NCBI RefSeq assembly: GCF_002356355.1
Contig: NZ_AP018052.1
Coordinates: 2,170,001 to 2,234,000, forward strand
Length of the DNA stretch: 64,000 nt
Origin: Thiohalobacter thiocyanaticus
GTDB taxonomy: Bacteria; Pseudomonadota; Gammaproteobacteria; Thiohalobacterales; Thiohalobacteraceae
Direction of reading: 5' to 3'
Shown here: piece by piece, positions 4,886 through 58,422 of the stretch
How positions within the stretch are numbered: the first letter of the stretch is position 1
Layout of the letters: every line of letters begins with the position of its first letter
Position numbers and translations under genes: made by a program
The notes under the pieces: generated by a model
What the model saw: the letters and a program-made list of their open reading frames with translations, nothing else
Databases searched by the model: none
What the model was told of the DNA's origin: nothing

Positions 4886-4954
4886 CCGTCATTCCCGCGA
4901 AGGCGGGAATCCAGTGGTTTCAGGACATGGATGCCCACTTTTGCGGGCATGACG
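4886..4954. repeat. REP-like palindrome, family 1 (CGTCATTCCCGC)
   Basis: Two facing hairpin units: CGTCATTCCCGCGAAGGCGG at the left end and a diverged inverted copy ending GCGGGCATGACG at the right. It fills the bamA-skp gap. Related copies lie at 13940, 43534, 47090, 49674 and 50825. Confidence 0.85.
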
Positions 4955-13939: not shown

Positions 13940-14009
13940 CGTCATGCCCGCGCAGGCGGGCATCCATGTCTCTGAAACCCCTGGATCCCCGCTTTCGCGG
14001 GGATGACGG
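13940..14009. repeat. REP-like palindrome, family 1
   Basis: Facing hairpins starting CGTCATGCCCGCGCAGGCGG and ending TTTCGCGGGGATGACGG, between tsf and rpsB on the shared transcript. Its transcript would fold into two stable stems and could affect S2-to-Ts stoichiometry. Confidence 0.85.
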
Positions 14010-43533: not shown

Positions 43534-43640
43534 CGTCATCCCGGCGCAGTGCCTGTGCCGGACGCGATCCGGTACCGGGATCCCGGATCCGGCCGTCGCC
43601 GGGTAACCCACTGGATCCCGGCCTGCGCCGGGATGACGGC
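43534..43640. repeat. REP-like palindrome, family 1, enlarged
   Basis: Left unit CGTCATCCCGGCGCAG, right unit CTGCGCCGGGATGACGG, with an extra GGTACCGGGATCCCGG-type palindromic stretch between, making it longer than the other family 1 copies. It ends 6 bases before the dctP start codon and therefore occupies the ribosome-binding region. Confidence 0.8.
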
Positions 43641-47089: not shown

Positions 47090-47161
47090 CGTCATCCCGG
47101 CGAAGGCCGGGATCCAGTGACCACGGCGGTATCTGGATCCCCGCCTTCGCGGGGATGACGG
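47090..47161. repeat. REP-like palindrome, family 1
   Basis: CGTCATCCCGGCGAAGGCCGG at the left (first 20 bases conserved) faces CCTTCGCGGGGATGACGG at the right. Just before it, 47046-47070 has an AACGCCAAGAACGCAAAGGC stretch of another dispersed motif type. Confidence 0.85.
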
Positions 47162-49396: not shown

Positions 49397-49752
49397 ATCG
49401 ATGGCCACGGAACACACGGAAAGCACGGACGTGCCACATAAGACATTCGCAGGTCGGGTTAGCCCAAAGGGCGTAACCCGACGCTGTGGGCTGTCACATC
49501 AATCACATTTAGTCTATCTGCCTCCTGTCGGGTTACCCTACGCTAACCCGACCTACAAATCTGATTGCCTTCAAACAGCGGCCGGATCCGGGTGAATGAA
49601 TGGTGACGATTAACACACCAACGATGAATTCAGCAGAACCAGGCCAAACCTGATCCATCTCCGTTAAATAAATCCGTCATCCCGGCGCAGGCCGGGATGA
49701 CGGATGTGGCTTGATCAGCGTTTCCAGAGTCATTTCGTATATTTCCGTGACG
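49397..49752. repeat. gap between cmoA and cmoB built of nested repeats
   Basis: No gene. It starts with family 3 units (CACGGAACACACGGAAAGCA at ~49411), then a full family 2 palindrome (49450-49556, arms CAGGTCGGGTTAGCC and CGCTAACCCGACCTAC), then a single family 1 hairpin (49674-49702, CGTCATCCCGGCGCAGGCCG onward), and ends with TCGTATATTTCCGTG, an inverted family 3 remnant, 6 bases before the cmoB start. I saw no clear ribosome-binding site for cmoB. Confidence 0.85.
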
Positions 49753-50754: not shown

Positions 50755-50974
50755 GAGCGCCACGGAATACACGGAAGGCACGGAAATATTAAAGAATCAA
50801 GAAAACTCTGATTTTTGTCCTTCCCGTCATTCCCGCGAAGGCGGGAATCCATTGACCGCGATGGCTTCTGGATTCCCGCCTTCGCGGGAATGACGGACAA
50901 TTAGTCAAGTGGAGCCTCTATGAAATTTTTTATTCGTATTTTTCCGTGCTTTCCGTGTATTCCGTGGCGCTCTT
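50753..50974. repeat. nested inverted-repeat element after cmoB
   Basis: Outer arms of 34 bases with one mismatch (AAGAGCGCCACGGAATACAC at 50753; its inverted copy ends at 50974) enclose a complete family 1 palindrome at 50825-50896 (CGTCATTCCCGCGAAGGCGG to GCGGGAATGACGG). The left arm overlaps the last base pairs of the cmoB stop codon. A (GATCTT) tandem run follows at about 50970-50991. Confidence 0.88.
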
Positions 50975-54544: not shown

Positions 54545-54632
54545 TCCCGTCATTGCGAGCGAAGCGCGGCAATCTCGTAACACACCTGAAAACAGTTGAG
54601 GATTGCCGCGGCGCTCCGCGCCTCGCAATGAC
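54545..54632. repeat. REP-like palindrome, family 1b (CGTCATTGCGAG)
   Basis: Left CGTCATTGCGAGCGAAGCGC with GGCAATCTCG, right GATTGCCGCGGCGCTCCGCG with CTCGCAATGACG. These arms resemble those that enclose the GIY-YIG gene at 57390-57794, so this may be a gene-less derivative of that unit. Confidence 0.85.
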
Positions 54633-54653
54633 GATTAAACCAGAGGCTTATTT

Positions 54654-55397
54654 ATGTTACTGCGTCGCCTGTTCCTGGCCACCCTTGCCCTGCTGATGAG
54701 CGCCGCTGTGCCGGCCGCTGACCAGTACGACGTGGAAATCATCGTCTACGCCAGCCTGGACCCGGACACCGGCGAGGAATACTGGCCGGCGCTGCAATCC
54801 GGCCCCGACCTCGCCTCGGCCTGGTACTTCGACCACACCCCGGCACTGCAGCCGCTGCCGCGCAAGGCCTACCGGCTCGATGCCATCACCGGCGCCCTGG
54901 CGCGTTCCAGACAGTATCGTCCCCTGCTCCACTTCGCCTGGCGCCAGCCGGGCTGGGAGCGTAATGCCGCCCTGCCCGTGCGCATCAACATCCCCCTCGG
55001 CAGCGCCCTGCCGGTGTACCCGGAAAGCCACCCTCTGCGCGCACCCGGCACCGTCACAGCGCCTTCCGGCCTGGCATCCGAATCCGCCTTCAGGGGAGAA
55101 ATGCAGCTGCTGGAAGGCACCCTCATGGTCTACCGCTCACGCTACCTGCACCTGGTAGCGGACCTGGTCTATCAGGAACGCCTGGGTCCGTCAGCGGACA
55201 GCAGTCCGTACGGTGAGGACGGCGGCATCGTCTACCAACCCATCCGCCTGCAGCAGTCACGCCGCATGCGCAGCAACGAACTGCACTACCTGGACCATCC
55301 GCGGTTGGGGGTGATCGCACGGATCACGCCGGTTGAGGCAACAGAAGCATCAGAAGACAAAACCGAAGAAACTCCGGACTCCTCCCCTACAGAGTAA
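54654..55397 (+). CDS. csiV: CsiV-family exported protein
   Basis: A 247-residue periplasmic protein with signal peptide MLLRRLFLATLALLMSAAVP. YDVEIIVYASLDPDTGEEYW is the CsiV start and GTLMVYRSRYLHLVADLVYQ its core motif; RMRSNELHYLDHPRLGVIAR is conserved. In Vibrio, CsiV binds peptidoglycan and is needed for LdcV/CadC-independent D-amino-acid responses; here only the family is certain. Position directly after mfd is usual. The C-terminus is acidic. Confidence 0.85.
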   Translation: MLLRRLFLATLALLMSAAVPAADQYDVEIIVYASLDPDTGEEYWPALQSGPDLASAWYFDHTPALQPLPRKAYRLDAITGALARSRQYRPLLHFAWRQPGWERNAALPVRINIPLGSALPVYPESHPLRAPGTVTAPSGLASESAFRGEMQLLEGTLMVYRSRYLHLVADLVYQERLGPSADSSPYGEDGGIVYQPIRLQQSRRMRSNELHYLDHPRLGVIARITPVEATEASEDKTEETPDSSPTE

Positions 55398-55502
55398 TGT
55401 CCGCAGCCGACCAGGAGCGGATATTCTGCCAAAAAAAACGGCTCCCGAGGGTCTAGGCGTTACACAAAGGTGTTGCTCGTCTAAGCGGTTTTTGATTTAA
55501 TC

Positions 55503-55621: not shown

Positions 55622-56017
55622 TTAGAATTCCGCGCGAAATTTCGCAGCCATAGTAGCGAGATTACGCATGATGGTGTTATCGCGCGCCTGGTGATGCGCG
55701 TCCGGCCTCAGGATCGCCATCAATAAAAAACAATTAAGGTCAAAGAATCCCTGACAGTAGACCAAGTGATGATCGCTGGTGCGATTGTACTGCGGTTGTT
55801 GCTTGGTCCATTGTCGAGTTTCTTCCGCCAGATGCAAATGCATAATTTGCTCGCTGCGAACGGAAGGCAGAGTGTGCGGATGATCGTATGGGATATCCCG
55901 ACCAAAATAACTCGCAGGGATACCCGTTTCCTTGTACTGCTTGAAATCAGCTACAAGTTGATTCAATTCAGACTGACTGAGTTGCCTCTGAAGCAGCCGA
56001 CTCTTGAAAACCCGCAT
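55622..56017 (-). CDS. yafO: type II toxin, YafO family
   Basis: Ribosome-associated mRNA endonuclease toxin. The 131 residues align well by eye with E. coli YafO: MRVFKSRLLQRQLSQSELNQ at the start, PASYFGRDIPYD, HLVYCQGFFD and LRPDAHHQARDNTIM toward the end. The ATG at 56017 overlaps the antitoxin stop as TGATG and matches the MRVFK family start; a GTG one codon earlier is also possible. Unlike E. coli, there is no dinB upstream. Confidence 0.92.
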   Translation of the reverse strand: MRVFKSRLLQRQLSQSELNQLVADFKQYKETGIPASYFGRDIPYDHPHTLPSVRSEQIMHLHLAEETRQWTKQQPQYNRTSDHHLVYCQGFFDLNCFLLMAILRPDAHHQARDNTIMRNLATMAAKFRAEF

Positions 56018-56316
56018 CACTCAGAGAAGGAGCCTAAATCTTCTTCACTGGCTTGTTCCAGTAGTTTTTCCCCTTGTTCCGCGATTTCTCTCAACCGCGC
56101 AGCAGTTGGCCGGAAACGCCCCTCGAATGAATCGAATTGCTGACTTTGCTGTAAGACACTCAGCAGTGTTTCATAGACCTCGGCGCCGAGAATATAACCT
56201 GCCGTGCGATTGTTGGATAACACGGCAATTGCATGATCAGTGAAGTACGCCTGAGGTCTTTTGCGAAACTCGGTGATTGACACCGTCTCATCAGCAAGAA
56301 TCTTTTGTACGCTCAT
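56017..56316 (-). CDS. yafN: type II antitoxin, YafN (Phd/YefM-like) family
   Basis: A 99-residue antitoxin that would neutralise YafO and repress the operon. SVQKILADETVSITEFRKRP is the DNA-binding N-terminus, IAVLSNNRTAGYILGAEVYE the Phd/YefM core and FEGRFRPTAARLREIAEQGE the toxin-binding helix. The ATG at 56316 is preceded by GAGAGAGG; an upstream in-frame extension (MYYTMYTSTYSIL) reads through the promoter. Confidence 0.9.
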   Translation of the reverse strand: MSVQKILADETVSITEFRKRPQAYFTDHAIAVLSNNRTAGYILGAEVYETLLSVLQQSQQFDSFEGRFRPTAARLREIAEQGEKLLEQASEEDLGSFSE

Positions 56317-56351
56317 TGCCTCTCTCGCATACAGAATAGAATACGTAGATG

Positions 56352-56369
56352 TGTACATAGTATAGTACA
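56352..56369 (-). promoter_or_regulatory. candidate yafNO operator
   Basis: TGTAC-ATAGTATA-GTACA, a 5-bp inverted repeat with an AT spacer containing -10-like TATACT on the minus strand, about 36 bases upstream of yafN. This is the usual place for Phd/YefM autorepression. Confidence 0.4.
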
Positions 56370-56552
56370 TTTCTAAGTATATAACGTCAAGACTCCTACT
56401 AAGTTTTAACGAATAGTTCGATTGATTTAATAATCAATAAGTTATAACTATGTAAACGGAGATTTCCGGGAATCTAGATTGCATTGCGAGCAACACCTTT
56501 GTGTAACGCCTAGCCCGAGGGAGCCGCTTTTAAGAATACTACTGCTAAATAC

Positions 56553-57119: not shown

Positions 57120-57426
57120 AAATCCTCATGTCGACCCCCTGTTATTAAAGGGTTTACAGGGGTGCATCTTCATATTCTCAGCAAGTCACATACCAGAAAA
57201 CCATATCAATATTTTGTCACACAGTAAAAGCAGTAAAAGGGGTCGATGACAAATGAGAACGATTGCGGTTTGTCACCGACCCCTTTAATCACTTTAATCA
57301 CCGACCCCTTTAATCCCCCTTTAATCCCGACAGACAGCCAACCCGCCGAGTGATGGTCCGTTACCGACCAGAAGCGGTCTCTGATTACCCGTCATTGCGA
57401 GGAGCGAAGCGACGTGGCAATCTCCT
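57120..57426. repeat. gene-free stretch with GACCCC-type hairpins
   Basis: No gene in 307 bases. CCCCTGT/ACAGGGG forms a stem at 57136-57162. A 16-17-bp inverted pair with one mismatch (AGGGGTCGATGACAAA at about 57238; TTTGTCACCGACCCCTT at 57269) follows, then two direct copies of AATCACCGACCCCTTTAAT-like sequence (to 57316). The left arm of the GIY-YIG unit begins at 57390. Confidence 0.75.
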
Positions 57427-57794
57427 TCAGCCACAAATTTCCTCGAAAAGATCCCGCCATACCGGGTTTCCATCCTCTATCAACGCAACCTTCGCTTTTC
57501 TCGGCCTGCCCTTCAGCTGCTTCTCTCTTTCAATGGCCAGGTCCATTGTTTCAAAAAGCTCAAACCAGATCAGTCGCGTTACATTGTATTTTGCAGTAAA
57601 TCCTCTGACTGTCTTGCTTCTATGTTGCCAGATCCGTTTTGGAAGATTGCTGGTGACACCAATATATAATGTGCCATGCGGCCGGTTGCACAGGATATAC
57701 ACAGCGGGCTTTTTTCCATTTCGTCATCCTTAACGATGATGATTTAGCTGTATCTTTGGGAGATTGCCACGTCGCTTTGCTCCTCGCAATGACG
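57390..57794. mobile_element. REP-like unit enclosing a GIY-YIG gene
   Basis: Inverted arms of 36 bases with one mismatch (57390-57425 and 57759-57794; CGTCATTGCGAGGAGCGAAG, then CGACGTGGCAATCTCC) enclose a single nuclease gene. The gene's stop codon lies 1-2 bases inside the left arm. The arms are close relatives of the palindrome at 54545-54632 and share CGTCATT with the family 1 repeats. Confidence 0.65.
57427..57702 (-). CDS. small GIY-YIG nuclease-domain protein
   Basis: A 91-residue stand-alone GIY-YIG domain (UvrC/YhbQ type). VYILCNRPHGTLYIGVTSNL has the YIL and YIG tyrosines, KRIWQHRSKTVRGFTAKYNV the catalytic Arg region, and AIEREKQLKGRPRKAKVALI the conserved Glu. In this frame no ATG precedes it, only the GTG at 57702. 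An ATG at 57719 (MEKS in its own frame) would read MEKKPAVYILC if the following six-A run (57710-57715) were one base longer, so the native start may need slippage, or the copy may be frameshifted. Confidence 0.8.
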   Translation of the reverse strand: MYILCNRPHGTLYIGVTSNLPKRIWQHRSKTVRGFTAKYNVTRLIWFELFETMDLAIEREKQLKGRPRKAKVALIEDGNPVWRDLFEEICG

Positions 57795-57896
57795 TGGTAT
57801 CTTCAAAGTCCGCTAAGTGCCGACAGCGGAACTTCTGATACTCAGATTCAGCGAAAGGCAGGACTGTGAGCGAAGGTTATGGCAATATGGTTTTGA
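57703..57896. other. gap between GIY-YIG unit and brnA
   Basis: Contains the upstream ATG and A-run of the GIY-YIG gene, the right arm of its unit (57759-57794) and about 100 bases without recognisable features. Confidence 0.5.
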
Positions 57897-58145
57897 TTAC
57901 ACAGCGCGCTTCAATTCTTCCCGTATTATTTTACGCAAGATGCTTTCAAGTTCCTTATCGTGCGCCTGTATATATTCCCTCAAGGCATTGTTAATCAGCG
58001 TCTGATAATTTCCACCACCACTTGCATGCACCCGGTTCTTGAAATGTTCGACAATATCCGTATCGAGCCGTATTGTGATCCGAACCTTGTTTGGATCGGA
58101 TTTGACGACCGGTCCGCGCTTCGCTTTGGAAAAATCTTCAGCCAT
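57897..58145 (-). CDS. brnA: type II antitoxin, BrnA family
   Basis: An 82-residue ribbon-helix-helix antitoxin. KVRITIRLDTDIVEHFKNRV and GGGNYQTLINNALREYIQAH form the DNA-binding motif; the charged C-terminal helix (LRKIIREELKRAV) would contact the toxin. The ATG at 58145 overlaps brnT by 8 bases; the open frame upstream is a shadow of brnT. Confidence 0.9.
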   Translation of the reverse strand: MAEDFSKAKRGPVVKSDPNKVRITIRLDTDIVEHFKNRVHASGGGNYQTLINNALREYIQAHDKELESILRKIIREELKRAV

Positions 58146-58422
58146 GGTGATCGAGACCTTGATAGTACTGTCTGATTTCACGTCTGGTTGCACGCCGGGC
58201 AGATATGATGCGTATGCGATTATTCCCACGCTCGGCATGCACCACATATAGGACTTTCAGGTACGGCCCCATTCCCAGGGTCTTGAACCTCAGTTCGCCG
58301 CTATCCCGATCCTCAATCGTCAGCGCATTCTCATCTTCGAGCGCAACCACTGCATCGGCGAAATCGACGCCATGCTTGCTGAGGTTATGGGCAGCCTTCC
58401 GTGGATCCCACTCATAGTCCAT
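58138..58422 (-). CDS. brnT: type II toxin, BrnT family
   Basis: A 94-residue RelE-fold ribonuclease toxin. MDYEWDPRKAAHNLSKHGVD is the BrnT start, FADAVVALEDENALTIEDRD follows, and RIRIISARRATRREIRQYY has the C-terminal catalytic Arg and Tyr. The toxin precedes the antitoxin, the normal BrnTA order. A TATGCAC/GTGTACATA-like imperfect repeat just upstream (58431-58453) is a candidate operator. Confidence 0.92.
   Translation of the reverse strand: MDYEWDPRKAAHNLSKHGVDFADAVVALEDENALTIEDRDSGELRFKTLGMGPYLKVLYVVHAERGNNRIRIISARRATRREIRQYYQGLDHHG

Follow-up and report, generated by a model that had tools for sequence, protein, structure and literature searches.

In RAYT (TnpA-REP) systems with GTAG-tagged REPs, a single enzyme gene lies between inverted REPs that are abundant genome-wide. 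The gene-less REPs of REPtrons and REPINs number in the hundreds and are mostly paired; a genome holds several types of them, with a separate enzyme for each, and the palindromes are perfect for one RAYT enzyme group and bulged for another (PMC8266576). All of these features are paralleled in the system described here, represented at 57390–57794 of a 64,000-nt stretch of the Thiohalobacter thiocyanaticus genome (the window) by two inverted REPs that enclose a gene for a GIY-YIG protein. In contrast to the RAYT and REPtron enzymes, this protein is a GIY-YIG hydrolase rather than an HUH/Y1 tyrosine transposase, and the tag of the repeats is CGTC or TGTC rather than GTAG; the unit itself contains neither a GTAG tag nor an HUH/Y1 gene. 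In its working the system would resemble RAYT/REPIN, yet it falls outside that group, having an enzyme of another superfamily and another tag. The parallel had been drawn in the initial annotation, and it holds both in anatomy (inverted REPs at the gene, an abundant gene-less dimer and a conserved spacer) and in the matching of enzyme to repeat.

Few dispersed repeats of bacteria are commoner than CGTC-tagged REPs, which include dRS3 of Neisseria and RPE-4 and RPE-6 of Rickettsia. As described by Di Nocera et al. (2013, PMC3733652), units of this superfamily carry an unpaired tag, CGTC or TGTC (or CCTC), at one end, an 8–9 bp stem starting with AT and a short tail, mostly CCA, that stays unpaired, and are mostly arranged as head-to-head dimers; the same authors concluded that they 'apparently lack a dedicated transposase'. 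The repeats described here resemble the superfamily, including dRS3, RPE-4 and RPE-6, in their tag, their copy number and their outward dimers, and their stems likewise start with AT, but a GIY-YIG subfamily lies inside dimers, and the stem of type A is broken after the first 5 bp. A full-text search, with preprints and most subscription journals outside its scope, found no literature linking GIY-YIG proteins with REPs. The GIY-YIG subfamily is a promising candidate for the enzyme so far lacking from this widespread bacterial repeat family and, being locked to the repeat with class-for-class matching, makes the question of a dedicated enzyme directly testable.

Three further groups invite comparison. 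UPF0213 (COG2827-like) proteins, Slx1 and the UvrC N-domain share the catalytic fold and residues, but their genes lack REP bracketing. GIY-YIG homing endonucleases and Penelope-like retroelements likewise tie a GIY-YIG nuclease to mobile DNA, whereas the present gene has neither intron nor reverse transcriptase and encodes a lone domain of ~97 residues with REP ends. Pairs of IS elements and MITEs also combine an autonomous copy with short non-autonomous derivatives that have the same ends; here, by contrast, there is no DDE or HUH transposase, target duplication was not seen, and each end is itself a hairpin.

The gene-bearing unit and its copies

The 36-nt arms of the unit, at 57390–57425 (plus strand) and 57759–57794 (minus strand), are complementary at 35 of 36 positions. 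The left arm is a type-A CGTC-tagged REP unit (CGTCATTGCGAGGAGCGAAGCGACGTGGCAATCTCC) and the right arm is the same unit inverted, with one mismatch; both start with a CGTC tag directed outward from the gene. The sole gene between them is a GIY-YIG gene of ~97 codons, whose minus-strand ORF in the window (57427–57702) has a Pfam match to PF01541 (54 bits, E-value 2e-14) and the alpha motif REKQLKGRPRKAK; neither a DDE nor an HUH transposase lies between the inverted arms. The left arm lies 1 nt from the stop codon. The initial annotation had given just this arrangement, with 36-base arms bearing one mismatch around exactly one small nuclease gene whose stop codon touches the left arm.

One A has been lost in the window copy from the A run following the ATG (ATGGAAAAAAGCCC versus ATGGAAAAAAAGCCC in locus L033), and the counterpart of this ATG, at 57719–57717, is out of frame by 1 nt. 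Judging from the sequence, translation of the window copy would have to start from the GTG at 57702, giving 91 residues; the other two copies, at 1.97 and 3.13 Mb, carry an undamaged gene of 97 residues from ATG. The genome, a single 3.23-Mb contig, encodes six GIY-YIG domains, one of which is UvrC. Three of the five other loci hold near-identical versions of the unit, which are 405, 404 and 405 bp long, match each other at 94–96% over 430 nt, outer left segment included, and have unrelated surroundings. The fourth (L031, C1:625 kb) is bracketed by a type-B palindrome, and the fifth gene (L034) belongs to another subfamily and is not bracketed. No match above the gathering score was found in Rfam at the locus, and no relative of the GIY-YIG protein in the phage collection.

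Sequence common to the three copies continues for ~25 bp beyond each arm and includes halves of another palindrome (TCCGCT..AGCGGA). The outer left segment (CGACCAGAAGCGGTCTCTGATTACC, 57365–57389) does not vary among the three gene-bearing copies and has a similar counterpart in the congener G001; elsewhere in the genome it occurs, at up to two mismatches, beside gene-bearing copies only, plus one chance match. The outer right segment (TGGTATCTTCAAAGTCCGCTAAGTGCC, 57795–57822) is also common to the copies. Because of these ~25 bp outside each arm, the unit that moved in this genome was larger than the arm-to-arm sequence, and the palindrome whose halves are shared may mark its true outer end or a preferred target. 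In the window, the palindrome GTCCGCT..AGCGGA is found at 55395–55425, 57340–57385 and 57808–57832, both singly and on either outer flank of the GIY-YIG unit. Two type II toxin-antitoxin-like pairs flank the unit at 55622–56370 and 57897–58422, comprising a YafO toxin with a Phd/YefM-like neighbour, and BrnT/BrnA. This region appears to be an insertion hot spot, since the stretch is much shorter in G001.

Type-A and type-B repeats

The type-A pattern CGTCATTGCGAG, with at most one mismatch, has 105 + 107 occurrences in the genome, compared to 9 + 4 for the reversed control pattern. An inverted partner is present for 64 of the 70 plus-oriented type-A units examined. Sixty-one of these 64 pairs span 37–165 bp, with a mode of 85 bp, and contain no gene; the remaining three span 404–405 bp and are the only pairs that enclose anything, in each case the GIY-YIG gene. 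The spacers of the gene-less dimers share 60% pairwise identity, a figure somewhat inflated by the choice of dimer orientation to fit the consensus, versus 27–28% in their flanks. This conservation of the spacer indicates that the gene-less dimers spread as a unit.

Type B (CGTCATCCCGGC..GCCGGGATCCAG) is a second type of CGTC unit and is also abundant in the genome. On folding, type B forms an 8-bp stem beginning with AT, and type A a 5-bp stem (ATTGC/GCAAT) followed by an interrupted region; with such interrupted stems, type-A units escaped the strict hairpin detector, and a 5-bp rule was used for them instead. Units of many relatives end in CCA(G), and the window arm ends in CTCC. Many type-A units contain GCGAAGC inside the interrupted stem, for example at 57404–57410 of the window; GCGAAGC forms an unusually stable DNA mini-hairpin.

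Within the window, a gene-less type-A dimer (REPIN) of 86 bp lies at 54548–54633. Gene-less type-B dimers are located at 4887–4954, 13940–14008, 47090–47160 and 50825–50895, together with one recognisable type-B unit on the minus strand (43614–43638). The initial annotation had placed in the family of the arm the gene-less palindrome it gave as 54545–54632 and, more distantly, those at 4886, 13940, 43534, 47090 and 50825. This is correct for the first; those at 4886, 13940, 47090 and 50825, and the unit at 43614–43637, are type B instead. A type-B palindrome tagged at both ends (CGTCATCCCGGCGCAGGCCGGGATGACGG, 49675–49702) is possibly the deletion product of a dimer, and a similar palindrome with a CGTC-like tag at each end is present in Sinorhizobium K101, at ~909–936 of locus L163. 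Some type-A dimers (L009, L030, L278, L281, L283, L292 and L296) have additional common outer sequence, with ..CTCTGATTnATT before and GCTAACTAAGTGCCATTCAA after them, and may thus belong to a composite element that extends beyond the dimer.

The structure of these dimers bears on the main rival explanation, a homing parasite, in which the GIY-YIG enzyme would cleave gene-less REP dimers so that recombination via the arms copies its gene into them, the REPs being landing sites that spread otherwise. GIY-YIG enzymes include homing endonucleases, the protein has a weak NCBIfam match, below cut-off, to group I intron endonucleases, and homing would likewise yield bracketing and enzyme-repeat matching. 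However, the three copies have a common and unique outer sequence on both sides, whereas homing into different dimers would leave differing flanks, and the inner edges of the gene unit lack the two halves of the gene-less spacer. The gene stands free between REPs, with no intron or intein, and its three copies in unrelated surroundings have no fixed cognate site. Homing also leaves unexplained why repeat abundance tracks gene class (see below). Disfavoured by the common outer flanks and the non-matching inner edges, a homing origin is rather unlikely.

Association of gene and repeat across bacteria

Relatives of the GIY-YIG protein were picked by protein similarity alone and then scanned for [C/T]GTC-AT hairpins. 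Outward CGTC units were found on both sides in 27 of 63 dereplicated loci from many phyla, and in this set an outward unit lies within 100 bp in 61 of 125 flanks, against ~1% farther out. For the class of the window, 184 genomes, one per species, yielded 50 loci by profile; 26 of these are bracketed, 50 of 98 flanks have an outward unit within 100 bp, and some unit is present within 300 bp at 38 loci. Bracketing expected from background is ~0.1%, and the association is highly significant against local background (binomial p < 1e-60). The tags of the relatives are CGTC or TGTC. Records of the plasmid collection also contain CGTC units at the gene in Azospirillum, Rhizobium, Shinella, Aeromonas and Sinorhizobium, and the Neisseria gonorrhoeae gene copy sits amid dRS3 repeats. 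Among controls, none of 12 UvrC genes was bracketed, nor was any of 30 other small GIY-YIG genes, many of them in repeat-rich genomes and only one with any unit nearby. Thus the idea put forward with the initial annotation, that arms of this kind border small GIY-YIG genes, is borne out far above background for this subfamily. Gene and arms are one recurring unit across phyla. That the window holds an ordinary small gene in a REP-rich intergenic region, by chance or by assembly artefact, would fit the intergenic location of REPs and their frequency near gene ends (PMC3733652); with three copies of the unit in the genome, no bracketing in the 30 other genes from the same or repeat-rich genomes, the significance against local background and the recurrence in independent collections, the probability of this explanation is negligible.

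The gene was found in 40 of the 184 genomes. At least 10 counted units are present in 21 of the 40 genomes with the gene and in 16 of the 144 without (odds ratio 8.8, p = 1e-7), as had been anticipated for gene-bearing genomes; this and the other genome-level p-values are indicative, the genomes being phylogenetically non-independent. Four gene-bearing genomes have zero counted units, and two of the genomes scored as lacking the gene carry fragments of it at contig ends. The complete genomes G081 (114 units) and G083 (42 units) are repeat-rich and lack the gene. Abundant palindromes in genomes that never carried the gene had been named at the outset as a refutation of the idea. This applies in part: the gene is now absent from some repeat-rich genomes, G081 among them, which may have carried it earlier.

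Enzyme classes, fold and proposed mode of spread

The segment following the catalytic glutamate falls into three motif classes, each paired with an arm type. The class without tryptophan (REKQIKAGSRKKK) has ATTGCGAG arms in 29 of 29 loci, the W..W class (REKAIKNWKRAWK) fully paired stems in 44 of 48, and the W..K class (REKQIKGWTRQKK) ATnCTGAG-like interrupted stems in 14 of 15. Among the five exceptions, four W..W proteins turn out on inspection to have fully paired stems as arms, and the fifth, L206, has lost the second tryptophan; with the four reassigned, arm structure follows from the presence of the second tryptophan at 89 of 90 loci. The best tree built without the motif columns requires 11 arm changes and implies nine independent pairs that back the match, of which supported branches guarantee one, the protein tree being poorly resolved and too short for a phylogenetically independent test of motif against arm. 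Part of the match could thus stem from common descent of gene and arms.

Repeat content follows the same division. At least eight type-A units are present in all eight genomes with an alpha gene, versus 7 of the 176 others (p = 2e-10), and no genome-level association was found between the alpha gene and type-B units. The beta gene goes with type B in 16 of 30 genomes, compared to 14 of 154, and alpha-only and beta-only genomes differ in repeat type (p = 2e-5). The T. thiocyanaticus genome carries both types, A and B, each with its own GIY-YIG gene. Since enzyme class and arm type match, recognition by the enzyme of its own repeat type is strongly implied.

Two alignments show no variation at the catalytic residues Tyr8, Tyr19, Arg29 and Glu66. 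The AlphaFold model (pLDDT 94, pTM 0.86) is closest among solved folds to UPF0213 protein BH0048, followed by Slx1 and the UvrC N-domain, and places the specificity segment between the helix of the catalytic glutamate and the next helix. By sequence comparison, the subfamily is distinct from UPF0213, Slx1 and the UvrC N-domain. Slx1 and UvrC are nucleases that cut branched or damaged DNA, and the similarity of the catalytic fold to these structure-selective enzymes would suit a host-serving function, in which REP hairpins and cruciforms would be trimmed or resolved by the nuclease for control of replication, mRNA or supercoiling, and the gene lies beside its substrate for autoregulation rather than spread; the adjacent arms could then act in cis on the gene's own transcript. 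The patchy distribution (40/184), several near-identical copies, damaged copies and an insertion into an operon are instead traits of a mobile gene, and make a host-serving role very improbable.

The locus is best read, by analogy, as a REPtron/REPIN-like system with a GIY-YIG nuclease in place of the HUH transposase. The unit is probably a gene-bearing copy of a REP-associated GIY-YIG element, with the gene-less dimers as its non-autonomous derivatives and the nuclease acting on the REP. In such a scheme, the 405-bp gene-bearing unit would be the autonomous form, and the ~60 gene-less dimers of ~85 bp would relate to it as REPINs do to RAYTs. The nuclease, with a fold close to that of Slx1, which cuts branches and flaps, would bind the REP hairpin formed in single-stranded or cruciform DNA at replication, read the stem through the segment directly following the catalytic glutamate, and nick each end next to its CGTC tag. 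Copying or insertion of the dimer elsewhere would then fall to host polymerase, ligase or repair. We infer mobilisation by the GIY-YIG enzyme on these grounds, including its binding, nicking site, hairpin substrate and dissemination by cutting.

DNA hydrolysis is the chemistry of GIY-YIG enzymes, which are not known to act as strand-transferases. This hydrolytic chemistry counts against the enzyme as mobiliser, as do the outer common sequence and the repeat-rich genomes G081 and G083 that lack the gene. We lean only slightly toward the broader proposition that CGTC REPs of many phyla form a class of transposable elements whose sole enzyme is a small GIY-YIG nuclease, with three enzyme classes reading three hairpin types via the segment after the glutamate and host repair completing transposition. 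If true, bacteria would offer a case in which small repeats owe their spread to a nuclease that hydrolyses DNA and not to a transposase, and the enzyme would be a small nuclease that reads DNA structure and whose hairpin specificity can be predicted.

Comparison of insertion sites

In Azospirillum lipoferum, the element lies between sufB and sufC with CGTC units on both sides, and it is absent from this site in A. ramasamyi, A. oryzae and strain B510. The gltA-lpxB site of Sinorhizobium is occupied by the gene and REPs, and in strain K101 by a doubly tagged solo palindrome, the product expected if the two palindromic arms had recombined. This suggests that doubly tagged palindromes are solo remnants of recombination between both arms. 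The sites of the other two T. thiocyanaticus copies are unoccupied in two congeners at the flanks that could be compared, and G001 has a decayed copy of the unit in the neighbourhood corresponding to the window. Comparison of the T. thiocyanaticus copies with G001 and G002, and of the Sinorhizobium and Azospirillum sites, where flanks are too diverged or a solo palindrome remains, resolved no target duplication, precise junction or transposition event.

Another possibility is that CGTC REPs are moved by a different enzyme, of RAYT/IS200 type or a DDE transposase, with the GIY-YIG gene as trapped cargo. It draws on the copies in Legionella sp. PATHC038, which lie within an IS5-like element, on a Y1 transposase-like gene in the T. 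thiocyanaticus genome, and on the absence of the GIY-YIG gene from some repeat-rich genomes; Neisseria repeats have also reportedly been linked to RAYTs by some authors. The one or two Y1 transposase-like genes of T. thiocyanaticus have no CGTC units in their flanks. No other cargo was found, all three gene-length dimers carrying the GIY-YIG gene, and random cargo would not be a single type-matched enzyme subfamily in a dozen phyla. Transport as cargo is accordingly quite improbable, and an element served by its own GIY-YIG nuclease remains the preferred reading.

The multiple gene copies of Legionella sp. PATHC038 were considered as proof of self-mobility and rejected, since alignment places them in the IS5-like element. 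At least 18 copies of this element are present (L092–L105, L110, L117, L118 and L120), with a GIY-YIG passenger at the 3' end beside a hairpin with the tag TACGT and the tail ATCCAG. In Sinorhizobium meliloti Ak57, a second, truncated GIY-YIG copy (L148, 1157–1315), itself enclosed by CGTC units, is arranged in tandem with an intact copy.
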